The notes below the pieces were generated by a model, which was not told the origin of the DNA, searched no databases, and saw nothing but the letters and a program-made list of their open reading frames with translations. Of a stretch of 33,755 bases of DNA, positions 4,949 to 33,365 are shown piece after piece (within the stretch, counting starts at the first letter, position 1; each line of letters begins with the position of its first letter). This DNA is from a virus. A program made the translations under genes and the position numbers. The stretch spans positions 1 to 33,755 of the IMG/VR virus record IMGVR_UViG_3300048930_000278, one strand, 5' to 3'.

Positions 4949-4989
4949 TAGCCGCGCAAGAAAGCAGCAGCGAAGGGGGTGGGGAGTGA
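4945..4989 (+). CDS. Possible 14-aa leader peptide
   Basis: MIAAQESSSEGGGE begins in the previous stop (ATGA) and its own stop overlaps the next gene's GTG (GTGA). The two couplings suggest it may be translated mainly to deliver ribosomes to 4986. The peptide itself has no recognisable feature, and it could be chance. Confidence 0.25.
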   Translation: MIAAQESSSEGGGE

Positions 4990-5171
4990 GAACAGGACTA
5001 TACAGAGTTAGACGCGGGCTGTTTGGAAAGTGCGTTCTGCAAGCGCAATTTGATGGCCCTGCGCTTATAGGCGGGCAAGTAGATTCTTCTATCCGTGTTC
5101 TGTACTGGACCGATGTTAAGTATGATACTGCGCCGATATGCTTGAAGGAGTGGAAAAACAATGACCAATAA
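4986..5171 (+). CDS. Small basic hypothetical protein (61 aa)
   Basis: The GTG start at 4986 (MRTGLYRVRRGLFGKCVLQ) follows the purine-rich AAGGGGGTGGGG, so I took it over the upstream TTG/CTG codons. The protein reads like a small beta-rich protein (KCVLQAQF, IRVLYWTDVKYD). Similar R-x-R-x2-L-LQ proteins occur in early regions of many phages, function unknown. It overlaps the next gene by 11 bases. Confidence 0.5.
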   Translation: MRTGLYRVRRGLFGKCVLQAQFDGPALIGGQVDSSIRVLYWTDVKYDTAPICLKEWKNNDQ

Positions 5172-5460
5172 CAACCCGCCGATGCCGGAACGGATAAACG
5201 TGTGCCGCGTTGATGACCCTAAATATTTACTAGGGACTGAATACCGTCATGTTTTCGGCGACACCGAGTATGTCAGATCAGACCTCTCACGCCCACGCCT
5301 GACGGATGATGAGGTGGAGGCCCTGAATAAAGAAGTAATAGAAACGATGGGAGATACAGAAGGTCCGCACTTTGAAATGCGCGGTGGGGTGGTGACCGTA
5401 TATCCTGAGCGTATTGTTCTGGCTACAATCAAATATTTGCGCCAACGGGGGATTATATGA
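5161..5460 (+). CDS. Hypothetical protein (99 aa)
   Basis: This is an acidic 99-residue protein with an ATG after AAGGAG (5145-5150). A helical segment (LTDDEVEALNKEVIETM) is followed by a beta-like stretch (GGVVTVYPERIVLATIKYL). No motif is recognised. It is the last gene before terminase; the 27-base gap that follows has no obvious terminator, so early and packaging genes may share a transcript. Confidence 0.55.
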   Translation: MTNNNPPMPERINVCRVDDPKYLLGTEYRHVFGDTEYVRSDLSRPRLTDDEVEALNKEVIETMGDTEGPHFEMRGGVVTVYPERIVLATIKYLRQRGII

Positions 5461-5487
5461 AACGCCATATTGTGATATCATAGCGCC

Positions 5488-6093
5488 ATGACAAAAAAGA
5501 AGGACACCACCAGGAACAGCAAGCCCGCACCGGCTAAGGAGATCCACGCCCCGGCCTTCCCACAGTTCGAGGGTATGGGCATGACCGTCCTGCAACAGAA
5601 GTTTGTTATGGCATACTGCCGCCCGGATGTGGGCTTCAATGGCACAAGGGCCTATATCGAAGCCGCCGAAATGGACGAGATCGAGGACTACATGACCGCC
5701 GCGCAAAGCGCGTCCCGTCTGTTGAAGAATGTCAAAATTCAGCAAGCAATTTCCATAGAGATCGGGCGGTTCGCAAAAAACCATGACGCGCTGGCCGAGG
5801 CGGTGCTGAAATCATGGGCAGTCACAGCCTTTGCCGACGTGTTCGATGTCATAGCCGTCGAGGGTCCGTTTGTAGTCCTGCGGTCGGTCGACGATATACC
5901 GCCCCACCTGCGGACGATGGTGCAGAGCGTCGAGAACACGGCCATGGGCATCAAGGTCAAGTTTTGTGACCGGGACAAGGCCAAGGAGAATATTGCGCGC
6001 GCGCTGGGTATGTTCACAGAAACGACCCGCACCGTGGGCGAGAGTTATGAAACGCTGGTTGAGCGGCTGGCAAAGCAGGAGGAAAAGGCATGA
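5488..6093 (+). CDS. terS: Terminase small subunit
   Basis: The small terminase recognises viral DNA and recruits the large subunit for packaging. The section MTVLQQKFVMAYCR...NGTRAYIEAA...AAQSASRLLKNVKIQQAISIEI (about residues 30-92) follows the terminase_2-type helix-turn-helix pattern, in which such proteins bind the pac or cos site and assemble as rings. A C-terminal half of mixed helices follows, ending in charged residues. The length of 201 is in the usual range. It overlaps the next small gene by four bases (ATGA) and lies two genes upstream of the large subunit, the usual order. Confidence 0.8.
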   Translation: MTKKKDTTRNSKPAPAKEIHAPAFPQFEGMGMTVLQQKFVMAYCRPDVGFNGTRAYIEAAEMDEIEDYMTAAQSASRLLKNVKIQQAISIEIGRFAKNHDALAEAVLKSWAVTAFADVFDVIAVEGPFVVLRSVDDIPPHLRTMVQSVENTAMGIKVKFCDRDKAKENIARALGMFTETTRTVGESYETLVERLAKQEEKA

Positions 6094-6302
6094 GATTGAA
6101 AAACGTGAAGCTCCGACGGTTTCTGGATAAGTGGAAATGGCCGCTGGTGACGCGGGGCCGCTACCAGACCCTCAAGGACAACATGCAGGCCGAGCTGGAT
6201 CATGCCAGCCGCACCATCGCCGCGCTGAATGCAGCCCTGCTGGAAGCCCGCAAGAACGACCACCGCGACCCGGAAACCGGACGGTTTGAGAAAGCCCCGT
6301 GA
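6090..6302 (+). CDS. Small basic coiled-coil-like protein (70 aa)
   Basis: It starts in the small-terminase stop (ATGA) and ends inside the large-terminase start (GTGA). The N-terminus is strongly basic (MRLKNVKLRRFLDKWKW), then a helical stretch (LKDNMQAELDHASRTIAALNAALLEARK) and a polar end (DPETGRFEKAP). Its position between the terminase subunits suggests a packaging accessory, but I cannot name a family. Confidence 0.6.
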   Translation: MRLKNVKLRRFLDKWKWPLVTRGRYQTLKDNMQAELDHASRTIAALNAALLEARKNDHRDPETGRFEKAP

Positions 6303-7867
6303 GTGATGATATACGCCGCAGGCTGCTGACCGACCTCACATTCTACGCTCCGGCGCAGTTAAAGATCATGCCGAAGTCGGGCGGCAGGGCCATACCGTTT
6401 GACCTGAACCGGGCACAGGCCTATCTCCATGACCGCCTGGAGGACCAGCGCAAGCGCACCGGCAAGGTCCGGGCCATCATTCTCAAGGGCCGCCAGCAGG
6501 GATGCAGTACCTACGTCGGCGCCCGCTATTACCACAAAACCGTCTGCAACCACGGCCTGCTGACCTTCATTTTCGCCCACGACACCGCGGCGAGTGAGAG
6601 CCTGTATGGCATGGTGCAGAATTATTATGACCTGTCAGACCCGTCATTCCGGCCTGAACTGGGCGCGCGCAACCACAAGGAGCTGCTGTTTCCGGTCCTG
6701 AAATCCGGCTACAAGGTAGGCACGGCGGGCACAAAGGGTCTGGGCCGGTCCAAAACTTTCCAGATGGTGCACTGGTCAGAGGTGGCCTATAGCCCTAACG
6801 CTGCCGATCACGCGGCGGGCATCCTGCAAACCGTGGCCGACTTGCCAGATACCGAGATTATTCTGGAAAGCACAGCGAACGGGGAGGGCGATTATTTCCA
6901 CCTTGCCGCCATGCAGGCCATCGCGGGCGTGGGTGATTTTGAACTGATATTTATCCCGTGGTACTGGCAGCAGGAATATACCCGCCGGACGCCGCCCGAC
7001 TTCGCCCTTGAGCAGCCCAAGGACGACGAGGACTTTACGAGCGAGCAGGAATACATGGACCTGTTCCACAAGGACGGGCTGACATTCGAGCACCTCGCAT
7101 GGCGCCGGGCCAAGATCGCGGAGTTCAACGGGGAAGTGTCGCGCTTCATGCACGAGTACCCGTTCACGCCGGAGGAAGCCTTTGCGGCATCGAGCGCGGA
7201 GAGCTATATCAAGGCCCTGACCATCAAGAAGGCCCGCCAGACCGCGCCCATTCAATCCAACGCGCCGATGGTGTTCGGCGTTGACCCGGCAGCCCTCGGC
7301 GGCGACAAGTTCAAGGTATGCCACCGCAAGGGCCGCACGGTGACAAAGGTGGACACATACCCCGCCATGTATCCGCATGAGAGCGCGCGCAGGCTGGCGC
7401 AGGACATCCAGAAGTACAGGCCTATGCGGGTGAACATCGACGTCGGCGGGTTGGGTATCGGGGTTTATGGCTGCCTGATCGATATGGGTTATGGGAACAT
7501 TGTCCACAAGGTGAACTTTGGCGGCGCATCGTCGGACCCGGATAATAATTATCGCTACGTCGACGAGATGTTTCGGGGCGCGTGGAACTGGTTTGCAGAC
7601 GGGCCGGTGTCGATCGCCTGCGATGAGAAGAACGCCGCAGCCATCCAGTCGGAAATCAGCGGGCGCAAGCACAAATGGCACAATAACAGCCAGCTGCGGA
7701 TGGAGCCTAAAGCCGAGTTCAAGAAGCGTATGCAGTACAGCCCGGACACGGGCGACAGCTTCCTTTTGACCTTTGCCGAGCTGCTGCCGGAGAACCCGCA
7801 ATTGCGCCCGGGCATGAATGGCCAGACGATGCAGGCGGGTATTGAAGGCTGGGACCCGTTCAAGTAA
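6299..7867 (+). CDS. terL: Terminase large subunit
   Basis: This is the ATP-driven packaging motor and headful/cos nuclease. The Walker A-like motif KGRQQGCST is at residues 63-71, the Walker B region MVHWSEVAY at 156-164, and the coupling motif ILESTANGEGDYF at 188-200. RNase H-like nuclease Asp residues appear in FGVDPAALGGDKF (D329) and NIDVGGLGIG (D381). The length of 522 is normal. The GTG start overlaps the upstream stop. The protein is full-length with no frameshift. It belongs near P22/T4-type terminases rather than T7 gp19 by motif form, which with the recombination genes hints at headful packaging (inference). Confidence 0.9.
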   Translation: MSDDIRRRLLTDLTFYAPAQLKIMPKSGGRAIPFDLNRAQAYLHDRLEDQRKRTGKVRAIILKGRQQGCSTYVGARYYHKTVCNHGLLTFIFAHDTAASESLYGMVQNYYDLSDPSFRPELGARNHKELLFPVLKSGYKVGTAGTKGLGRSKTFQMVHWSEVAYSPNAADHAAGILQTVADLPDTEIILESTANGEGDYFHLAAMQAIAGVGDFELIFIPWYWQQEYTRRTPPDFALEQPKDDEDFTSEQEYMDLFHKDGLTFEHLAWRRAKIAEFNGEVSRFMHEYPFTPEEAFAASSAESYIKALTIKKARQTAPIQSNAPMVFGVDPAALGGDKFKVCHRKGRTVTKVDTYPAMYPHESARRLAQDIQKYRPMRVNIDVGGLGIGVYGCLIDMGYGNIVHKVNFGGASSDPDNNYRYVDEMFRGAWNWFADGPVSIACDEKNAAAIQSEISGRKHKWHNNSQLRMEPKAEFKKRMQYSPDTGDSFLLTFAELLPENPQLRPGMNGQTMQAGIEGWDPFK

Positions 7868-7874
7868 GATGGTC

Positions 7875-7889
7875 GGGTTGCAACAACCC
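7875..7889 (+). other. Small perfect hairpin after large terminase
   Basis: GGGTTG CAA CAACCC is a 6-bp stem with a 3-base loop, eight bases after the terminase stop and before the RBS of the secreted protein. There is no T-run, so it is not a classic terminator; it may be an mRNA-processing or stability element. Confidence 0.4.
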
Positions 7890-7905
7890 TGTACTGGAGA
7901 TCCCC

Positions 7906-8388
7906 ATGAAACGCTTTTTTATCGCACTTGCCGCTGTGCTGCTTGTCGCGGCCCCCGCCTATGCTGACAACTACGTCCACGCCTACAAATCGGAAGCCGA
8001 GATCCGGAACTACTTTTCGGAAACTGCGACGGCTGCCAATGTCCTGAACCAGACCGAGTGTGGCAAGACGTTGTTCCTGTCCACGACCGGCCACGCGACA
8101 ACGCTGCCGACGCCGACCATTGGCTGCACGTTCAAGTTCATCGTGGCCACGGCATCGCAGGGCTTCACGATCATCACGTCCGGCGCCGAGCTTATCAAGG
8201 GGCTGGGCTTTGAAACTGATGACGCCAGCGCAGATTATCCGACCACCGCCGGCGCTGACACGATCACGTTCGTTTCCGGCACTGCCAAGGTTGGCGACCG
8301 AGCCGAGGTTGTCAGTGATGGCACCTACTGGTACGTCGTGACCTTCACCTCGTCCGATGGCGGTGTGACATTCACGTCCGCAATTTAA
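7906..8388 (+). CDS. Secreted protein with signal peptide (160 aa)
   Basis: MKRFF, a hydrophobic core IALAAVLLVAAP, and an AYA cleavage site after residue 20 make a textbook Sec signal peptide. The mature ~140 residues are Thr/Ser/Ala/Gly-rich and probably beta-structured (NVLNQTECGKTLFLSTTGHATTLPTPTIGC), with cysteines in TECG and IGCT that could form a disulfide. RBS CTGGAGA is at 7893-7899. A phage protein exported by the host between terminase and portal is not a normal morphogenesis gene. Together with the next gene it may alter the host envelope (inference). It could also be a structural beta protein with an unusual leader. Confidence 0.7.
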   Translation: MKRFFIALAAVLLVAAPAYADNYVHAYKSEAEIRNYFSETATAANVLNQTECGKTLFLSTTGHATTLPTPTIGCTFKFIVATASQGFTIITSGAELIKGLGFETDDASADYPTTAGADTITFVSGTAKVGDRAEVVSDGTYWYVVTFTSSDGGVTFTSAI

Positions 8389-8398
8389 ATAATATACT

Positions 8399-8440
8399 AG
8401 GGGGAACGCTGCTGGCCTTGGCGCTGGCAGCGTTCCTTTA
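8399..8440 (+). promoter_or_regulatory. Hairpin over the start of the O-antigen enzyme-like gene
   Basis: GGAACGCTGC (8403-8412) and GCAGCGTTCC (8427-8436) form a perfect 10-bp stem with a 14-base loop, followed by TTT. The likely RBS AGGGGG (8399-8404) enters the stem, and the candidate TTG/CTG starts lie within stem or loop. The hairpin could end part of the transcription or mask translation start. Confidence 0.55.
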
Positions 8441-9398
8441 TGTCCATGATACCGGCAGCCCGCTGCTGCTTGTGGGATTGGCCCTTGCCGCCGCCGGGGT
8501 GGCTGTATCCGACAGGGCGCCCAGCTTTACCGTGGTCTGGCTGCTGTGCCTGCTGGGGCTTTCCGCGGCGACCAACCCCACCGAGCTGTCATTCCTCGCC
8601 ATATTCATGCTGCTGCCGTGTGTGGCGCATACGCGGGCCAGTATTGTTCCTGCGGCCATTGTGGTCGCCATATTTGCGGCCGGGCTGATCGTCCAGACAT
8701 TCCTGACACCGGAGCTTATGTATTACGGCGCGCGCGCGTCCCGGCCCATGCTCAACCCGAACAACGCCGCGGAGGTTCTCAACTTCCTGATGGTGCCGGT
8801 GCTGTGTCTGCTGGTCGACAGGCCGACGCGCTGGCGGGCGCTGGCCGGGTTGCTGTTGCTGGCGGCCATGCTGTGCACAGGGAGCAAGAGCGGGATTGTC
8901 GCGGCCCTGATCGCGGTGGCGTTCTTTGCGTTCTTCAGGAAGCCCGCGCTGCGCCTGCCGCTGGCCGCGCTGGCCGGGGCTGCGGTGGCGGTTATTGCGA
9001 TATGGGAGCCGGCGAGGCAATCGCTTGCCAGCCGGTTTGTGATATGGGACAAGGTGGCGGGGCTGATCGGCCAGGGCGATGGGATCGGCAGTTTCTACAC
9101 GCTGTACCGCCCGCTGATGACGGATGCGGACCGCGAGGTGTCGGCAGGGTTCTTTGCCCATAATGACGTCCTGCAGATTGCGATTGAAATGGGCTGGCCT
9201 GCCGCGCTGGTGTTTCTTGGCACGTTGATTTATGGGATATGCACGGTTCGCAGGGCGCCGCTGGCCGCGAGTACGATGCTGGCCATATTCCTGCACGCGA
9301 TGGTGTCCTTTCCGTTCTATATGGCGCCTGCCAGCCTTCTGGCCGGGCTTGCTTTTTCGAGGATGAGCAATGGTCATAAACCCGATATACTTCGATGA
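8418..9398 (+). CDS. O-antigen polymerase/ligase-like (Wzy_C/WaaL-type) membrane protein
   Basis: This ~326-residue integral membrane protein has about 10-11 hydrophobic segments. Between the late segments it has the family's periplasmic loop: GDGIGSFYTLYRPLM (about 219) leading to AHNDVLQIAIEMG (about 245), the G.G.F...HN..LQ...E.G signature of O-antigen ligases and polymerases. A GSKSGIVAAL segment near 155 also fits. Such enzymes join O-antigen or other sugar chains in the inner membrane. It is shorter than typical family members (about 400), with an open frame upstream of the start. The listed TTG at 8418 and CTGs at 8409/8412 are alternatives. It overlaps the next gene by 29 bases. Role in seroconversion or exclusion is inference. 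Confidence 0.75.
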   Translation: MALAAFLYVHDTGSPLLLVGLALAAAGVAVSDRAPSFTVVWLLCLLGLSAATNPTELSFLAIFMLLPCVAHTRASIVPAAIVVAIFAAGLIVQTFLTPELMYYGARASRPMLNPNNAAEVLNFLMVPVLCLLVDRPTRWRALAGLLLLAAMLCTGSKSGIVAALIAVAFFAFFRKPALRLPLAALAGAAVAVIAIWEPARQSLASRFVIWDKVAGLIGQGDGIGSFYTLYRPLMTDADREVSAGFFAHNDVLQIAIEMGWPAALVFLGTLIYGICTVRRAPLAASTMLAIFLHAMVSFPFYMAPASLLAGLAFSRMSNGHKPDILR

Positions 9399-9819
9399 AA
9401 TCCAGCAGTGGTATGTGATTTTCCTCCCCCGGAGCGCGCCGCGTTCCTGCTGGTGGCATTGGCTGGTGCGGGATGAGTTCGCGCATTGCTGGCTTGCCCG
9501 GGAGATCGGGCCGCGCCAGATGATGGTGGTGGAGCAGAATGACTGGGGCATAGCGGTGCAGATCATCGACCGCCCGCTGGACGAATACCTGCTGGAGCAG
9601 GGCCGCATTGCCACCGCTATCCTTGGCTATACCGCTGATTACCGCCGCCAGACACAGCCCCGCCGCCGGGTGATTTACACCTGCGTGAACACGGTCAAGG
9701 CCGTGCTGGGGCTTTATCACTGTGCGGAGGTGCAAACTCCTTACGGATTGTATAAACTGATGCTGAGATACGCGGCCACCACAGTGGTCAAACCGTTCGT
9801 TCCATTCGTTCACGCATAG
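9370..9819 (+). CDS. Conserved podovirus-type protein, possible Cys/His hydrolase (149 aa)
   Basis: The protein has an N-terminal WWHWLVRDEFAHCWL segment with a conserved-looking His, and a C-terminal helix start YTCVNTVKAVLGL followed by TPYGLYKLM. The order His-then-Cys with CVNTVK at a helix start resembles permuted NlpC/P60-like cysteine hydrolases. I recall similar proteins near podovirus portal genes, but the match is from memory of the pattern only. It could act on peptidoglycan or a protein. It starts inside the membrane gene (29-base overlap) and ends ten bases before the next gene. Confidence 0.45.
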   Translation: MVINPIYFDEIQQWYVIFLPRSAPRSCWWHWLVRDEFAHCWLAREIGPRQMMVVEQNDWGIAVQIIDRPLDEYLLEQGRIATAILGYTADYRRQTQPRRRVIYTCVNTVKAVLGLYHCAEVQTPYGLYKLMLRYAATTVVKPFVPFVHA

Positions 9820-9828
9820 GGGAATGAT

Positions 9829-10083
9829 ATGTCAAAAATGTTAGGTGGTAAGCCAAAGGCGCAGAAAGTCGACACCAGCGCGCAGGACAGGCTGCTGGCA
9901 GAGCAGGAGGCCCGGCTGAAAAAGCAGGAGGCCGATGCTGCCGCGGCTGAGGATGAGCGCAAGAAGAAGGAGCAGGGCGCGGCGGCGGCCAAGCGCGGTC
10001 GCTCTGGTGGCGGTTCCTTGCTGTCCGGCCTTGAAACAGGTGTTACGCCTGTGTCCGAAGGCAAACGCACGACACTGGGGTAA
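9829..10083 (+). CDS. Small charged protein upstream of portal (84 aa)
   Basis: An Ala/Lys/Glu/Gln-rich helix (about residues 18-52) is followed by RGRSGGGSLLSGLETGVTPV. This small protein type, ending in a Gly/Ser-rich SLLSGL.TG segment, occurs just before podovirus portal genes. It is probably a virion or head-assembly accessory protein. The RBS is GGGGAATG, eight bases before the ATG. No enzymatic motif. Confidence 0.6.
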   Translation: MSKMLGGKPKAQKVDTSAQDRLLAEQEARLKKQEADAAAAEDERKKKEQGAAAAKRGRSGGGSLLSGLETGVTPVSEGKRTTLG

Positions 10084-10089
10084 TGTGGC

Positions 10090-11649
10090 ATGGCCCAGCT
10101 TGAACTCGAACGACTGATTGACCGTTGTAAAAAGGGCATCACTGACCGGGACATGAACCGGCAGACGTTCGAGGATTGCTATGAGTTCATGCAGCCCTAC
10201 CGCAATACGTTCTCGCAGCAGGCACAGGGCGAGGGCAACAAGACGTTCAACAAGCCCTCCCGGCAGTATGACAGCACGGCCATGATCTCGGCCAATAACT
10301 TCGTGAACACCATGCAGGCGAATTTCACGCCCGTGTTCACCCGCTGGGCAGAACTCAAGGCAGGCCCCGGCATCCCGGAGAAAGAGCGCCCGAAGCTGAA
10401 CAAGGAATTGTCCAAGCTGACCGAGCTGATTTTTGCCTACATGAACGCGTCCAACTTCGCCACCGCATCGGCGGAAATGTACTTCGACTGGGGCATCGGA
10501 ACCGGCGCCTTGTGGCTGTTTGAGGGGGACGAGCAGCAGCCCCTGAATTTCGTGGCCACGCCCATGAGCCAGATGGGGCTTGTCGAGGGGCGGTTTGGCA
10601 CGGTCGACACCCGCGTCCGCCAGCACCGCATGAAGGCCCGGCTGATCAAACCCAACTGGCCGAACGACAAGATCGTGCTGTCATCCGAGCTGGAGAGCTG
10701 CATCAAGGACAAGCCCGACGAGGAGGTTGAGCTGCTTGAGGTGTGCTATTATGATTATGACATGTTCGTGTGGCACTACGAGGTTATCCACGAGCAGAGC
10801 AAGCACCGCCTGCTGCACCGCGAATATGCCGAGGAAATCTGCTTTACCCCGCGCTGGATGAAGATACCGGGATATGCCTGGGGGGTTGGCCCGTTCGTGC
10901 TGGCCCTGCTGGACGTCAAGACCCTGAGCAAGGTGCGCGAGTACATGCTGCGGTCTGCGGCCCTAAACATCTTCGGGGTGTACACGGTGGCCAATGGCGG
11001 GGCGTTCAACCCGAACACCACCGTTCTGAACCCCGGCACGTTTATCCCGGTGGAGCGCAACGGCGGGCCGAACGGGCCGAGCATTGCCGCCCTGCCGCGC
11101 AACGGTTCGTTCGACCTGCAGGAGTTCATGGTGCGCGACCTGCAGGACCAGATCCGCAAGGTGATGCTGGACAACCGCCTGCCCGCCGACACGCCCCAGC
11201 CCAAGACCGCGTTCGAGATTTCGCAGCGCATCAAGGAGTTTCAGGTCAATATCGGCAGCGCCTATGGCCGTGCCATGTTCGAGTTTGTGCAGCCGTTATT
11301 CAAAAGGATTATCGCCATTCTGGTTAAGAAGGGCTTGATCCAGTTGCCGGAGGGGTTTGAGATCGACAACTTCCTGATACAGGTGCAGGTGGTTAGCCCG
11401 ATTGCCCAGCAGCAGGCGATGGAGGACGTGCAGAAGCTGACCAACGCGATGGCTATTGTGGGCGGTATATCGCCTGAGCTGGTCTTGACGGCGTGGGAAG
11501 TCGAGAAGCTGCCCGCCTACCTTACGGAGCGCACGGGAAGCCCGGCGGCGCTGCTGCGGGATGAGGAAACGGCAGAGGCTATGAGGGAGAAGATTATGCA
11601 GATCGCCGCGCAGATGATGGCCGCACAGCAGCAGGGAGCAGCCGCATGA
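10090..11649 (+). CDS. Portal (head-tail connector) protein
   Basis: This is the dodecameric portal through which DNA is packaged and released, T7 gp8-type head-tail connector family. The length of 519 is normal. Typical features are the N-terminal ELERLIDRCKKGITDRDMNRQTFEDCYEFMQPYRNTF, the middle MYFDWGIGTGALWLFEGD and AWGVGPFVLALLDVKTLSKVREYMLRSAALN. The C-terminal RLPADTPQPKTAFEISQRIKEFQVNIGSAYGRAMFEFVQPLF corresponds to the family's clip/stem region. A Gln/Ala-rich tail ends the protein. It overlaps the next gene by four bases. It is directly followed by structural genes and preceded by the accessory island. Confidence 0.9.
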   Translation: MAQLELERLIDRCKKGITDRDMNRQTFEDCYEFMQPYRNTFSQQAQGEGNKTFNKPSRQYDSTAMISANNFVNTMQANFTPVFTRWAELKAGPGIPEKERPKLNKELSKLTELIFAYMNASNFATASAEMYFDWGIGTGALWLFEGDEQQPLNFVATPMSQMGLVEGRFGTVDTRVRQHRMKARLIKPNWPNDKIVLSSELESCIKDKPDEEVELLEVCYYDYDMFVWHYEVIHEQSKHRLLHREYAEEICFTPRWMKIPGYAWGVGPFVLALLDVKTLSKVREYMLRSAALNIFGVYTVANGGAFNPNTTVLNPGTFIPVERNGGPNGPSIAALPRNGSFDLQEFMVRDLQDQIRKVMLDNRLPADTPQPKTAFEISQRIKEFQVNIGSAYGRAMFEFVQPLFKRIIAILVKKGLIQLPEGFEIDNFLIQVQVVSPIAQQQAMEDVQKLTNAMAIVGGISPELVLTAWEVEKLPAYLTERTGSPAALLRDEETAEAMREKIMQIAAQMMAAQQQGAAA

Positions 11650-28509: not shown

Positions 28510-28736
28510 AAATACAGGAATTTTTCCAGTCAGATGCCGGGCCGCTGTCGATGTCGCGGCTGCTGATGTTCGGCAGCTTTATCGTTTCCAGTGTCATAAT
28601 GCTGGTGCTGACCCGCGCGGATATGATGAACGAGGGGTATTTTTCCATGTATATTACCGCGTGGTCCGGTTCCTATCTGATCGGCAAGGGCATTGACATG
28701 AAGGCCGCCACCAGCCAGCAGGGGGGCAAGCAATGA
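28506..28736 (+). CDS. Probable holin (76 aa)
   Basis: The ATG at 28506 overlaps the endolysin stop (ATGA); an upstream in-frame start at 28443 would lie inside the endolysin gene, so I reject it. The protein reads MKIQEFFQSDAGPLSMSRLL, a hydrophobic segment (MFGSFIVSSVIMLVLT), then a second (YFSMYITAWSGSYLIGKGI), and a polar basic tail. Two membrane segments and position between endolysin and spanin make it the best holin candidate; membrane pore formation is inferred. Confidence 0.6.
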   Translation: MKIQEFFQSDAGPLSMSRLLMFGSFIVSSVIMLVLTRADMMNEGYFSMYITAWSGSYLIGKGIDMKAATSQQGGKQ

Positions 28737-29092
28737 TATGGGCACAAGTGTTTGGGTTTATTGCGAAATACTGGCGGACGGGATTGATTATTACCGCCAT
28801 CGTAGCCGTTTCTGGTTTGTGGCTACATTCACAGGGCCAAGGGGAAAAGATCGCCAGATTGAAGGCGGATTTGGCCTTAAAATCAAGCGTCATTGAGGAA
28901 ATGGAAAACGCCCGGCGGGCAATGGAGAGGACGGCACAGCATGACAGGCACAACATGGACACAGCCGCGCGGTCGGCGGCAGCGGTGGCGGCGGGCAGGC
29001 AGGGCGGTGATGGCCCTATGGCTCCTGTGTTGCGCGGCGAATATGACCGCGTGCTCGACCTTGCCGCGAAGAACCCCGGTTATTTCAGATAG
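28733..29092 (+). CDS. Rz: Inner-membrane spanin subunit (Rz-like)
   Basis: This 119-residue protein has one membrane segment near the N-terminus (TGLIITAIVAVSGLWLH, about 17-33) and a long periplasmic helix (EKIARLKADLALKSSVIEEMENARRAMERTAQHDRHNM). It is the i-spanin form that pairs with an outer-membrane lipoprotein to fuse membranes at lysis. It overlaps the holin by four bases. An o-spanin gene starts inside it in another frame, which supports the call. Confidence 0.75.
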   Translation: MIWAQVFGFIAKYWRTGLIITAIVAVSGLWLHSQGQGEKIARLKADLALKSSVIEEMENARRAMERTAQHDRHNMDTAARSAAAVAAGRQGGDGPMAPVLRGEYDRVLDLAAKNPGYFR

Positions 29093-29279
29093 CACCCTGA
29101 CATGCCCTTGGCCCCCGCAATATGCCCCGCCCGCCGCGGCGACCCAAGCAGACGCCGCCGACGCACTGACCACAACGTTCCTGGCGGGCGACACTTGCGC
29201 TTACCGGCTGGCCTGTGTGCGCGGCCTGCTGCATGGAAAAACGCCCCCTTGTCCGGAGCCCGCCGTGGCCGTACGATAG
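28941..29279 (+). CDS. Rz1: Outer-membrane spanin lipoprotein (Rz1-like), nested start
   Basis: It lies in the +1 frame relative to the Rz-like gene and extends beyond it. A basic start (RGRRQRWRRAGRA) leads to VMALWLLCCAANMTAC, a lipobox (MTAC) with lipidated Cys. A Pro-rich stretch (CPWPPQYAPP) and a polar tail with TCAYRLACVRG and TPPCPEP follow. ATG 28941 and ATG 29010 (or GTG 29007) are candidates; the shorter gives a standard signal peptide. It is longer than lambda Rz1 (60). Confidence 0.7.
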   Translation: MTGTTWTQPRGRRQRWRRAGRAVMALWLLCCAANMTACSTLPRRTPVISDSTLTCPWPPQYAPPAAATQADAADALTTTFLAGDTCAYRLACVRGLLHGKTPPCPEPAVAVR

Positions 29280-29779: not shown

Positions 29780-30313
29780 TTACGGCTGAAGGCCCGTTAA
29801 TGCAATAACGCCTTTGGACCCGACCTTTTTCAGATACCCGAGGTCAATGAGGTTTTTGATATGCCGCGCCCCGGTGTTATGGCTACCCCATCCCCCGCGC
29901 TCGGACAGGCTGCGGGAAGTGATAACCACCTTGTCGTTCACCATCATCTCGATCATGCGGAAAGCCTTGGTCTGTTCCGGCGTCAAGGTGGGGCCGCAGG
30001 GGGCCTGTTCGGCCTTCGGGGCCTTCGGGGCCTTCACCGCCTTACCTTTGGCCGCAGCCTTGCCCTTGGGCTTCCTCGGGGCGCTGGCGGCCTCTAAGTT
30101 CGCGGCGTCGACAGCCCCCGCTAAAAGCCGGTCATTCAGGTTGATGATGGTCAGTGCCAGCAGGCGGCAGGTACGCGCCGGGACCGGTATAGCGTCCTCG
30201 CCGTCCTTGTGCGCAAAATTGCGGTCGTAACGCTTGGCCACGGCCAGAGCTTCGTTAATCTGGTCAGCGGTCAGATCGCTGGCCTGTATCGGGGTGTATT
30301 TCTCGCCTGTCAT
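29780..30313 (-). CDS. DNA-binding-like protein with Lys/Ala linker (177 aa)
   Basis: The first ~75 residues (ASDLTADQINEALAVAKRYDRNFAHKDGEDAIPVPAR) are a helical domain of unknown function. A Lys/Ala/Pro linker (KGKAAAKGKAVKAPKAPKAE) follows. A C-terminal winged-helix-like domain closes it: VNDKVVITSRSLSERGGWGSHNTGARHIKNLIDLGYLKKVGSKGVIALTG. It is the last gene of the leftward operon. It may be a regulator or DNA-end partner of the recombinase; no proof here. Confidence 0.55.
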   Translation of the reverse strand: MTGEKYTPIQASDLTADQINEALAVAKRYDRNFAHKDGEDAIPVPARTCRLLALTIINLNDRLLAGAVDAANLEAASAPRKPKGKAAAKGKAVKAPKAPKAEQAPCGPTLTPEQTKAFRMIEMMVNDKVVITSRSLSERGGWGSHNTGARHIKNLIDLGYLKKVGSKGVIALTGLQP

Positions 30314-30315
30314 TT

Positions 30316-30513
30316 CTATCTCCTTGTGGGTTGCAGTCTTATGTAATGTTGGGGCACGCTGTATTCCTTGGATAGTGCCTTTCTGACATCATCGCGCATT
30401 CCCTGTGTCAGATTGGCTGGCAGGTCGACGCGCTCGATGACGAACCCGTCCACCATTACCTTGTACTCCTGCACAGGGTACGCACGCGCCGCGCTTTTGT
30501 CCATAGCGGTCAT
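30316..30513 (-). CDS. Small hypothetical protein (65 aa)
   Basis: Its ATG overlaps the RecT stop (ATGA on the minus strand), so the longer in-frame version inside RecT is rejected. MTAMDKSAARAYPVQEYKVMVDGF reads as a beta-like start, then PANLTQGMRDDVRKALSKEY helix and a short basic end (LQPTRR). It is of unknown function and co-translated with the annealing protein. Confidence 0.55.
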   Translation of the reverse strand: MTAMDKSAARAYPVQEYKVMVDGFVIERVDLPANLTQGMRDDVRKALSKEYSVPQHYIRLQPTRR

Positions 30514-31412
30514 TTCACACATCCCGGGCACGGTCCCTTGCCCTGCGCGTCCTCGACCATGCCCGCGCCTCCGCACTGGCCGCATATATCGTCCATAGGC
30601 TTTTCCTCAAGTCCCAGACCCGCAACCAGATCGGGCTGCCCGTCATCGTCCTTGCCCCCGGCGTTCTGCTCGCTGCTGTCCCGGATCACATTGCCGTTGT
30701 CGGTAAGGTGGGCGACGTGGCCGCGCTCGAACTCGCCCTCGATGGCTGCCGCCCGCTGGACGTTCAAAGGCAGCTCAGGGGCCAGCGCGCGGATGGCGGT
30801 CTTGATGGCCATGGCCTCATAATGGCTGTCCCACGGGCTATCCTTGCGCTTGCCTGACAAAAATGCCTTGTACCCCTCCGACTTGTCCCGGATGGCGTTG
30901 ACCTGCTCGATGTGCAGCACGCGGAAATCGCTGGGCAGGTTGTGGCTGCGGGCGGTGGCATAGGCGTACAGGATGGGGCCGCGTTCGGACGGGCCGCCGG
31001 GCGCCGGGGTGTGCTCAAGATACGGTGACAGGCCCCGGCCATAACGGAAATGATCGGCCTTGCGGACCACATCGCCAGATACCAGATACCCGGAATTAGC
31101 GGCGAGTGTGATATATCCCTTGTATCCCGGGATAAACTGCGCCTTGCCCTTAAACGGGACAATGTGGCCCTGGCCGGTGACGTTATCGACATCAAGGCCC
31201 AGAACCGCCGCTGTCATGGCCGCCTGCACCACGCTTTGCGGCGTTGCGCTGGTGCACAGATATTCATTGGCGGACAGGGCATTGACCACACTGCGCACAA
31301 TCCGGTCTGGCGTGACGTGCGCGGGCAGCACCTTCTGGAACTCCGGCTTGAATTTCTCAAGAGCGTTCTTGTGCTTGGTTAAGGATTCATTAAAAACCGT
31401 TAGATTACCCAT
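30510..31412 (-). CDS. recT: RecT-type single-strand annealing protein with zinc-ribbon tail
   Basis: The start is ATG at 31412 after AAGGAAA, 300 residues. The RecT core is readable: VVNALSANEYLCTSATPQSVVQAAMTAAVLGLDVDNVTGQGHIVPFKGKAQFIPGYKGYITLAANSGYLV and later DSPWDSHYEAMAIKTAIRALAPELPLN. It anneals complementary single strands after exonuclease resection. The C-terminal tail has CGQC...CPGC (C277, C280, C295, C298), a zinc ribbon that standard RecT lacks. It forms an operon with the exonuclease upstream and two or more small genes. Confidence 0.88.
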   Translation of the reverse strand: MGNLTVFNESLTKHKNALEKFKPEFQKVLPAHVTPDRIVRSVVNALSANEYLCTSATPQSVVQAAMTAAVLGLDVDNVTGQGHIVPFKGKAQFIPGYKGYITLAANSGYLVSGDVVRKADHFRYGRGLSPYLEHTPAPGGPSERGPILYAYATARSHNLPSDFRVLHIEQVNAIRDKSEGYKAFLSGKRKDSPWDSHYEAMAIKTAIRALAPELPLNVQRAAAIEGEFERGHVAHLTDNGNVIRDSSEQNAGGKDDDGQPDLVAGLGLEEKPMDDICGQCGGAGMVEDAQGKGPCPGCVK

Positions 31413-31447
31413 AGTTATTTCCTTGCATTGTTGCCTTGTGTATCGCG

Positions 31448-31476
31448 TTTGTATCATGCTTGTGCGTAGCAATCAA
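31448..31476 (-). promoter_or_regulatory. Candidate promoter upstream of recT
   Basis: Read on the minus strand: TTGATT (31471-31476), a 17-base spacer, and TACAAA (31448-31453) with a TGA immediately before it (extended -10 form). It would start just after the end of the preceding small gene and before the recT leader, so recT may also have its own promoter. Sequence match only. Confidence 0.35.
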
Positions 31477-31679
31477 CCATTATCATCCCACCGCCGCCAG
31501 AATTGGCTTTTATTTTTTTGTCTGTCCGATCTTTTAACGTTAACAGTTGCGGGGTTTTTTGATTGCAAAAGACGCACCACTTCCTTGTGACGATCACCCC
31601 GCAGGTCGACTGGATTGCATACCGTCACCCCATTCCGGGCCAGCCACTCTGCTTTCAATTCTTCATCCGTCTTGTTCAT
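31473..31679 (-). CDS. Small basic hypothetical protein (68 aa)
   Basis: The start at 31679 overlaps the exonuclease stop (ATGA). The longer in-frame version into the exonuclease gene is rejected. MNKTDEELKAEWLARNGVTV begins it, and the C-terminal half is basic (KRSDRQKNKSQFWRRWDDNG). It may bind nucleic acid. It lies between exonuclease and RecT, so a recombination accessory role is possible. Confidence 0.55.
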   Translation of the reverse strand: MNKTDEELKAEWLARNGVTVCNPVDLRGDRHKEVVRLLQSKNPATVNVKRSDRQKNKSQFWRRWDDNG

Positions 31680-32626
31680 GCTTCGCCTACCGGGCGCACC
31701 TTGATCGCGCCGTTTTTCTGCACCTGTATGGCATAGTTGTCCGTGCGCGCGGCCCACCGTTTCCAGATTTTCCCGCCCTGCGGCGCCTCGGCCAGCATGC
31801 GGTGCAGGATGCGGGTTTTCATTTCCGTTACCCTCTGCTCCACGCCTTTTTTCTCCCCGCTGGCCTTGATCCATTCCGCCACGTAATCGTCAAGGATGGC
31901 ATCGCCGCGCAGGTCGCGGGGATCGGGATCCGCTTCCTCCTCCGCGAACTTAAACATATCGTTGATATGCCCGTATTCCTCCGCGCCGATAAGGGGCGGT
32001 TCGCGCCCGGCCGCCACATCATCCATGAACCGGCGTGTCCGCTCGATGATATGCTTGTGCACCTTCGGCTCGGGCTTTCTCAGCATCACCCGCACATCCT
32101 CCGGGTTGCCAGAGTGCAGGGATGCAATGCACCCCCACGTAAACGGGCGCAGTCCCTCGGCCACGCGGGCGGCATTGCATACCAGATATTCATGCTGCAC
32201 CTGCAATTCCACATGATCCGGGGCGCGGCTTTGCGTCCAGCCTGGCGCCCATTGCTGGACGTTCTTGATCTGCATGACGCCCGGGCCGTGTTCGCTTTCC
32301 ACCACGAAGTAATCAAGCGAGCAGCCCAGCCACGGGTATTCCGGATGCTCGTGGTAAAAGGCGCAGGGCTCCAGCCGCCAGCCGTGAATGTCAGAAACTA
32401 CAAAGGCGATGAACGGCTCCATAGCCTTTCCCAGCTCGGCCAGCAGGTTCAGCTTGGTTTCCGGTGGCAGGTTGCCGCGCTTTTCGTGGTACAGCGCATT
32501 AAGGGTGGGCGTGTATGAGTTGCCGCAATTGAACAATGCCGCCACATCAGACGCGCCGATATGCTTGCGGCGCAGGGCGTGCCAGCCTGCCGGGTCGTTT
32601 TTAATATAGATCGGTATAATTTCCAT
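31676..32626 (-). CDS. YqaJ-type viral exonuclease
   Basis: This is a lambda-exonuclease-like (YqaJ/PD-D/ExK superfamily) 5'-3' nuclease that makes single strands for RecT. Motifs: RRKHIGASDVAALF at 20-32, ELGKAMEPFIAF with E70, LGCSLDYFV with D105, and GVMQIKNVQQW with Q119 and K121. The normal motif is E/Q-x-K; here the first position is Gln, which may lower or alter metal binding. The length of 316 is usual. It is preceded by a small gene with TAATG overlap and followed by ATGA overlap. Confidence 0.8.
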   Translation of the reverse strand: MEIIPIYIKNDPAGWHALRRKHIGASDVAALFNCGNSYTPTLNALYHEKRGNLPPETKLNLLAELGKAMEPFIAFVVSDIHGWRLEPCAFYHEHPEYPWLGCSLDYFVVESEHGPGVMQIKNVQQWAPGWTQSRAPDHVELQVQHEYLVCNAARVAEGLRPFTWGCIASLHSGNPEDVRVMLRKPEPKVHKHIIERTRRFMDDVAAGREPPLIGAEEYGHINDMFKFAEEEADPDPRDLRGDAILDDYVAEWIKASGEKKGVEQRVTEMKTRILHRMLAEAPQGGKIWKRWAARTDNYAIQVQKNGAIKVRPVGEA

Positions 32627-32832
32627 TATATCAGCCCCTTATCCTTTGCCATCCATTCAGGCATGGTAAATGTTCCGTCCTTGTTGTCCTCAACCTGTGA
32701 CTTGGGCAGCCATGTCAAAACAGGCTCGCCGCGCAGGTCGCACATGCCGGCGTCGACGCCATACGCCTTTTCCGTTTCGCGCTGCAGCGTGGCGGCGACG
32801 TCGATCAGTTTAATATCGCGCTCCATGCTCAT
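32626..32832 (-). CDS. Small hypothetical protein (68 aa)
   Basis: It reads MSMERDIKLIDVAATLQRET and has TETEKAY-like and DLRGEPVLTWLPKSQVEDNKDGTF parts. It starts in the upstream stop and ends in the exonuclease start (TAATG). No motif was seen. The tight coupling suggests it is a real member of the recombination operon. Confidence 0.55.
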   Translation of the reverse strand: MSMERDIKLIDVAATLQRETEKAYGVDAGMCDLRGEPVLTWLPKSQVEDNKDGTFTMPEWMAKDKGLI

Positions 32833-33083
32833 GCGTTCCTGAATTCGTGGGCGGCCTCGATGCCGGCGTCCCGGCGTTCTTGCATACGGTCATAATAGCT
32901 TTCAAGGAATTTTTTCTCGGCGCAGATGGCGTCCTCAATGGCGTGCATCGCTACATGGATATTATCGTAAACCTCCTCACATTCCGACCGTTCGTACCAT
33001 GCGTTTAATTCCGCATAGATTTGCTCCAGACTAAGGAATTGCGGCTTTATTTCCGGCATGACAATCAGTTTTTTCTCTTGCAT
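32829..33083 (-). CDS. Hypothetical helical protein (84 aa), first gene of leftward operon
   Basis: The start at 33083 follows AAGGAGA; a longer in-frame start at 33113 would lie inside the promoter, so it is rejected. The protein is helical and charged (SLEQIYAELNAWYERSECEEVYDNIHVAMHAIEDAICAEKKFLESYYDRMQERRD). It is the first gene transcribed from the leftward promoter, a place often used for early host-directed proteins. Function unknown. Confidence 0.55.
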   Translation of the reverse strand: MQEKKLIVMPEIKPQFLSLEQIYAELNAWYERSECEEVYDNIHVAMHAIEDAICAEKKFLESYYDRMQERRDAGIEAAHEFRNA

Positions 33084-33102
33084 TTTAATCTCCTTGCGGG
33101 TG

Positions 33103-33132
33103 TTGACTTTCACGAATATAACGGGCTATCTT
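33103..33132 (+). promoter_or_regulatory. Rightward promoter of the Cro-like gene
   Basis: TTGACT (33103-33108) and TATCTT (33127-33132) with an 18-base spacer fit a sigma70-type promoter, about 36 bases before the Cro-like ATG. It overlaps the leftward promoter. TTTCAC (33108-33113) and GTGAAA (33144-33149) flank the pair as an inverted repeat, a candidate operator. Confidence 0.55.
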
Positions 33133-33143
33133 CAAAAGTACAA
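33115..33143 (-). promoter_or_regulatory. Leftward promoter of the recombination operon
   Basis: Read on the minus strand: TTGTAC (33138-33143), a 17-base spacer, TATATT (33115-33120). It is a good sigma70-type promoter, about 30 bases before the first leftward ATG. It lies face to face with the rightward promoter, so the Cro-like protein could control both. Confidence 0.6.
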
Positions 33144-33167
33144 GTGAAATTATTTCGGAGTAAAACG

Positions 33168-33365
33168 ATGACGAAAGCACAAATTCAAAAGAAGGTCGCA
33201 AGCTGGAAGTGGCGCATGATAAAGGCGTGCGGCACCGTTGCCATGTTCTGCGAGGCCACCAACCGGTCGCATCCGCAGATGTCGGAATGGCTGACCGGCA
33301 GGAAACCGCCCAAGCCGGAGAGTGTTGCCGCCGTGGAAGCCGACCTTGAAAAGCTGGGCGTTTAA
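33168..33365 (+). CDS. Cro-like helix-turn-helix regulator (65 aa)
   Basis: The ATG at 33168 follows TCGGAGTAAAACG. Residues ~25-60 read VAMFCEATNRSHPQMSEWLTGRKPPKPESVAAVEADLEKLG, a Cro/C1-type helix-turn-helix (helix, turn, recognition helix QMSEWLTG). No partner CI-like repressor is present. It lies divergent to the recombination operon and upstream of the replication gene, so it probably sets the early switch of both transcripts. Confidence 0.7.
   Translation: MTKAQIQKKVASWKWRMIKACGTVAMFCEATNRSHPQMSEWLTGRKPPKPESVAAVEADLEKLGV

Follow-up and report, generated by a model that had tools for sequence, protein, structure and literature searches.

Gene arrangement between the terminase and portal genes

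The analysed stretch of DNA (hereafter the window) is the complete IMG/VR record IMGVR_UViG_3300048930_000278, a linear sequence of 33,755 bases with completeness not given. Its genes follow the plan of a small podovirus, with a terminase, a portal of the Head-tail_con family, capsid, tail tubular proteins, internal virion proteins, a fibre and an M15-like lysis gene. Judged by the portal, the marine phage MEP301, at 35% identity, and pelagiphages come closest among cultured phages.

An earlier note on this DNA had placed a multi-span membrane protein of the Wzy_C/WaaL type between the genes for the large terminase subunit (TerL) and the portal. This location is correct (Table 1), but the gap holds three further genes, and the one directly upstream of the enzyme gene, from which it is separated by 29 nt, had been missed. 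The start of the enzyme gene is uncertain; we use a TTG codon at 8418, which lies behind a possible ribosome binding site, AGGGGGAA.

Table 1 Features of the terminase-portal region of the window
Feature	Position	Strand	Basis or remark
Terminase large subunit (TerL), left flank of the insertion	6299..7867	+	PHROG phrog_2, E 1.2e-16
Exported partner, 160 aa, signal peptide and C-terminal beta domain	7906..8388	+	Sequence, AlphaFold model
Possible ribosome binding site AGGGGGAA of the ligase gene	8399..8406	+	Read from the sequence; putative
Wzy_C/WaaL-type GT-C membrane enzyme, O-oligosaccharyltransferase-like, 326 aa	8418..9398	+	Pfam PF04932, profile, AlphaFold
Residues K157 / R206 / H248 of the enzyme	8886-8888 / 9033-9035 / 9159-9161	+	Counterparts of WaaL R191 / R265 / H313
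Gene X, backbone gene of the virus group, right flank of the insertion	9370..9819	+	Homologues beside TerL in relatives
Small conserved protein ending GLETG...LG, just before the portal gene	9829..10083	+	blastp matches in 14 related loci
Portal / head-tail connector	10090..11649	+	Pfam PF12236 Head-tail_con, E 2.9e-68

Comparison with related records delineates an insertion site between TerL and gene X. In record L012, TerL (7556-9118) and the gene X homologue (9103-9576) overlap with no insert between them, in records L003 and L004 a 66-aa signal-peptide ORF lies alone at this position, and in the window the site is occupied by the two-gene cassette. The homologues of gene X that adjoin TerL in these ligase-free records share 41% (L003/L004) and 28% (L012) identity with the window protein. 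Wzy_C was found in none of the 13 other records of the window's virus group, several of which are fragments, a result that we count against reading the two genes as a functional cassette. The small genes in the TerL-portal gap differ among relatives, with others present in L003, L008 and MEP301; the MEP301 gap gene is annotated as a (putative) acetyltransferase. Small acetyltransferase- or methyltransferase-like enzymes also occur in the gap of relatives (L003:5341-5817, L008:9267-9755, L005:305-883 and L024:5177-5677). Gene X itself encodes 149 aa with the motif TCVNTVKAVLGL..TPYGLYKLM, a conserved backbone protein without a Pfam match.

Other parts of the window carry further features. The gene at 1333-2076 contains three 60-nt tandem repeats that encode GGYLDLQGTGITALPENLTV units, a leucine-rich-repeat-like stretch. 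ORFs 28733-29092 and 28893-29279 overlap and resemble a spanin pair of the Rz/Rz1 type, one frame being embedded. A block on the minus strand (29780-33365) includes RecT (30510-31472) and a YqaJ exonuclease (31676-32626); the small divergent gene that follows at 33021-33365 resembles a Cro-type regulator, and a lysogeny switch past the end of the record is possible.

Family, predicted fold and residues of the enzyme

The enzyme ORF matches the Pfam family PF04932 (Wzy_C) with an E-value of 6.6e-13 and 49.1 bits, against a curated cut-off of 31.7. PF04932 is the only family of the Wzy_C, PglL_A or Wzy_C_2 type above its cut-off in the window. We also built a profile from 23 phage Wzy_C proteins, leaving the window out, and compared it with all window ORFs; it recovered the same ORF at E 7e-32, the next-best ORF scoring E 0.1. 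Single-protein searches found no close relatives in IMG/VR, GTDB genomes or phage records, and the PDB gave no match by sequence with this ligase as the sole query. Matches on plasmids were distant bacterial O-antigen ligases only; these served for the residue alignment.

The AlphaFold model (pLDDT 72.9, middling) consists of many membrane-length helices and a long loop at about residues 197-259. The structure-based comparison with Wzy/WaaL proposed in the earlier note gave WaaL as the best PDB match (7tpg; Z 11.2, 259 residues, 4.9 A), that is, a GT-C fold, followed by the SEDS enzymes RodA and FtsW at Z about 8. Foldseek alone was weak on this model (RodA, E 0.17), and WaaL emerged only in the VIA realignment.

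The motif read by eye in the earlier note is real, the sequence containing S-R206-FVIW, G220-D-G222-IGSF and A-H248-N249-D-V-L-Q253...E257-M-G259. In a profile alignment to 7tpg, R206 falls on Arg-265 and H248 on His-313, the residues that in WaaL bind Und-PP and activate the acceptor, respectively (PMC10920833). Alignment to bacterial ligases places K157 (context TGSKSG) at WaaL Arg-191, a conservative replacement. Given these alignments, the window protein has ligase-type residues, and by family, predicted fold and key residues together the ORF is assigned as a Wzy/WaaL-type GT-C membrane enzyme. WaaL (CAZy GT121) is the closest solved fold, with the counterparts of R265 and H313 kept and Lys in place of R191. 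The window enzyme differs from it in being shorter (326 aa) and about 14% identical in the structural alignment, and in lying outside an LPS locus with an exported partner gene beside it.

A probably exported partner with a predicted spike-like fold

The N-terminus of the upstream protein, MKRFFIALAAVLLVAAPAYA (7906-7965), is a textbook signal peptide, and a beta domain follows at about residues 31-156. By a simple in-house rule, this is the sole signal-peptide protein of at least 100 aa in the window; the rule, used throughout this analysis instead of SignalP, is crude. The closest match to the AlphaFold model of the partner (pLDDT 66.6, middling) is 9ny6, the capsid spike of the Pseudomonas phage Pa223, with Z 10.7; the tailspike TSP4 and domains of T4 gp9 and gp10 reach Z 8-10, whereas entries from outside phages begin at 7.5. 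Against viral protein structures it gave 188 matches at E<=1e-3, the named ones including tail fibre proteins. The similarity to the other partner families described below lies in the fold alone, sequence similarity to them being undetectable (leave-one-out E 0.33).

Recurrence of the pair in other viral contigs

Neither the exported partner nor the recurrence of the pair across viruses featured in the earlier note. We scanned IMG/VR for two DNA-encoded motifs, HNxxLQxxxExGW and HNxYLQxxxExG, ignoring gene context, and obtained 87 Wzy-like ORFs including that of the window, in 35 clusters at 40% identity and on about 80 more viral contigs. Because the scans demand the His motif, the conservation of H, N, Q, E and G among these ORFs is given by construction, which is not so for R206, W210 and G220/G222. 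All 50 records checked matched PF04932, 40 of them above the cut-off.

A signal-peptide protein of at least 100 aa is encoded directly upstream of the enzyme in 23 of the 31 resolvable clusters, compared with 48 of 485 other same-strand ORFs of these contigs (odds ratio 26, p 1.6e-15); four loci were scored positive by eye, having plain signal peptides on which the rule failed. A stricter automatic count with a matched control gave 22/29 upstream versus 2/30 downstream (p 3.5e-8). With 10% of ORFs and two of 30 downstream genes qualifying, adjacency to a signal peptide as common background was ruled out. The eight of 31 clusters that lack a qualifying partner count against the cassette reading, and many of the surveyed loci are fragments. 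The pair is also present in MAGs of Syntrophobacterales and Desulfomicrobium.

By sequence, the partners divide into 14 families. The pairing thus arose more than once, and descent of the partners as one inherited family was rejected. The median distance between partner and enzyme genes is -1 nt, and many pairs lie directly behind a presumed capsid gene. Pfam and PHROGs put names on few of the exported partners. The largest family matches the neck fibre gp82N in the PDB (8keg, E 2.5e-5), one of its members matches the head decoration family phrog_122, and another partner matches the major tail protein phrog_9522. In fold or profile, partner domains thus resemble the Pa223 capsid spike, gp82N and head decoration proteins, from which they differ by carrying signal peptides. 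The Ser+Thr content of the partners is elevated (21% versus 12%), although high Ser+Thr is frequent in virion beta proteins.

Cement-domain forms without a signal peptide adjoin the presumed capsid gene in L177 and L181. A reverse search with the cement-like partner family found a signal peptide together with an enzyme gene downstream in 22 of 55 relatives, and a signal peptide without the enzyme in 18 of 55 loci, mostly in longer proteins. Cement-like relatives in L184, L185, L186, L188 and L153-L171, mostly of 300-800 aa and with a signal peptide, have no ligase gene behind them. Signal-peptide-like starts were also seen on further virion-operon proteins, some of them tail- or fibre-like (L076:12489-13994, L097:10961-12820, L095:2738-3307, L057:2512-3153 and 4988-6250, and L031:1338-3542). 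These phages may thus export virion-like proteins more widely.

Relationship to polymerases, ligases and protein oligosaccharyltransferases

Polymerase families of the same clan (BP-Pol, GT-C1) have Asp or Glu where ligases have His (PMC10920833). Since H248 is present and Asp or Glu is absent, we avoided filing the window enzyme as a Wzy polymerase. The earlier label, polymerase/ligase-like, holds insofar as the virion operon encodes a GT-C enzyme of the Wzy_C/WaaL type; the polymerase as first guess gives way to the ligase-type histidine. By itself, this histidine cannot tell a protein from a lipid acceptor.

The profile of the phage enzymes matches PDB 9rmk, an oligosaccharyltransferase by its depositors' chain name only, at E 6e-16 versus E 4e-6 for WaaL 7tpg. 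Two relatives match NCBIfam TfpM (best E 3.7e-10) and three match PEP_O_lig_1; the window enzyme matches neither. Wzy_C alone recurs in 24 members, while PglL_A and Wzy_C_2 are absent, as they are from TfpO and TfpM (PMC12645811). Genes for the dedicated O-oligosaccharyltransferases TfpO, TfpM and PglS often lie close to those of their acceptors (PMC12645811), and the phage pair shares with TfpO/PilO, TfpM and PglS the Wzy_C-type enzyme adjoining a gene for an exported protein. It differs from them in being phage-carried, within virion operons, and in its partners, which are spike- or cement-like beta proteins, whereas the known acceptors are pilin-like. The phage partners also depart from the C-terminal Ser/Thr rule of TfpO/TfpM acceptors, which counts against the cassette reading: three of 51 end in Ser or Thr, and the last residue of the window partner is Ile. 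Membership in TfpO/TfpM was not adopted, given this departure and no sign of pilin partners.

Lysogeny and known phage genes

Phage genes of the Wzy/WaaL type are usually interpreted as a means by which temperate phages alter the host O-antigen. In the earlier note no integrase was seen here; likewise, no tyrosine integrase (PF00589) was found in the window record, which is linear and may be incomplete, so lysogenic seroconversion is no obvious explanation. An integrase occurs in one of nine records of the window's group (L019) and in two of the 26 records that the searches for ligases and partners had supplied. With so few integrases, most records are without a sign of lysogeny, a reading limited by the fragments among them.

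The Wzy-beta of phage D3 and the products of other seroconversion genes are phage-borne Wzy_C proteins, as here. In the temperate Variovorax phage VarioGold, the O-antigen-ligase-like gene VG_p25, likewise encoding a Wzy_C protein, adjoins VG_p26, which codes for a signal-peptide protein, as the partner gene does here; lysogenic cargo was the interpretation proposed by the authors (PMC9658991). The D3 and VarioGold genes are temperate cargo outside the late operon, whereas the window gene lies within the packaging/head operon of a record in which no integrase was found.

None of the 24 enzymes is matched by a PHROG family, and five of them had no relative among about 50,000 phage records; annotation pipelines therefore miss these enzymes. 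A tblastn search of phage records with two plasmid and four cassette ligases yielded one weak match. No cultured phage near the cassette came from these sequence searches, VarioGold being known to us via the literature only. In the open-access literature we found no description of the exported protein and enzyme as a system. We also know of no description of phage-directed periplasmic protein glycosylation for tailed phages of Gram-negative bacteria.

Proposed function and alternatives

On balance, we consider it somewhat probable that the two genes form a cassette, in which a spike-like exported protein is paired with an O-oligosaccharyltransferase-like enzyme of its own that would draw on lipid-linked glycans of the host. 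We infer export, donor, acceptor and any effect of the cassette with decreasing firmness along the following steps. The Sec-type signal peptide and the spike- or tailspike-like beta domain strongly indicate that the 160-aa partner is sent to the periplasm. Fold and residues indicate an inner-membrane location for the enzyme, its catalytic loop facing the periplasm, where the donor would be an undecaprenyl-diphosphate-linked host glycan, engaged by R206 and K157, and H248 would activate the acceptor. Judging from the gene pairing, the partner protein would be the acceptor, which would make the enzyme a functional counterpart of the dedicated protein O-oligosaccharyltransferases. Transfer of a lipid-linked host glycan to the partner by the ligase is suggested by the stronger match to 9rmk than to WaaL, the relatives matching TfpM and PEP_O_lig_1, the occurrence of Wzy_C alone and the acceptor-adjacent location of known O-oligosaccharyltransferases. 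Least certain is the last step, in which the glycosylated spike-like protein might decorate virions at lysis or, alternatively, work on the envelope of the infected cell, for example in superinfection exclusion. Docking onto virions at lysis could suit the spike- and cement-like folds and the position behind the capsid gene.

A WaaL-like ligase or Wzy polymerase might instead alter the LPS or capsule of the host, excluding rivals, freeing progeny from debris or masking the receptor, with the upstream gene as separate surface-active cargo. The enzyme belongs to the same superfamily, its closest fold is WaaL, and the Wzy_C genes of D3 and VarioGold are thought to act on LPS (PMC9658991). We nevertheless regard this as unlikely, if worth keeping in view, since it does not account for the recurrent association with exported proteins of 14 families, several of which are virion-like, neighbouring glycan genes are absent, the phage profile is nearer an oligosaccharyltransferase, and the histidine is of the ligase and not the polymerase type (PMC10920833). 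Polymerase-driven seroconversion is the less likely form of it. Exclusion, release and masking were also the uses considered in the earlier note, and the gene order agrees better with a paired protein acceptor than with any of them.

The occurrence of the cement-like exported protein without an enzyme in 18 of 55 loci, and of the lone 66-aa signal-peptide ORF at the same site in L003/L004, implies that the exported protein is able to act alone. It might therefore be a helper or anchor, such as a receptor blocker or a cofactor in the periplasm by which the ligase is redirected, and both proteins would act jointly on the envelope without glycosylation of the partner. Against this idea, which we consider improbable, the combination of 14 unrelated partner families with one enzyme family fits substrates better than specific cofactors. 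Very improbable, in our view, is inactive or accidental cargo, a host gene acquired at random at a permissive site of the terminase-portal gap: the gap does vary in relatives, with no insert in L012 and other small genes in L003, L008 and MEP301, and the relatives in the virus group lack the enzyme, but the catalytic R and H are retained, the frame is open, the operon order is kept, and the same pair recurs in many viral lineages.

Returning to the glycosylation cassette, the recurrent pairing in many unrelated uncultured phages suggests that they build glycoproteins of their own rather than merely repaint the sugar coat of the host. A broader form, which we put forward tentatively and hold to be rather doubtful, is that many uncultured tailed-phage lineages cover their virions in glycans that stem from the lipid-linked pool of the host, by exporting a capsid- or neck-decorating protein to the periplasm, glycosylating it with their own oligosaccharyltransferase and docking it at lysis. 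The recurrence of a virion-like exported protein with a ligase, mostly in integrase-free records, points to phage-directed periplasmic protein glycosylation. If the glycoprotein ends on the virion, this would account for the signal peptides on virion-like proteins of tailed phages and would alter how phage surfaces, adsorption and immune recognition are viewed.
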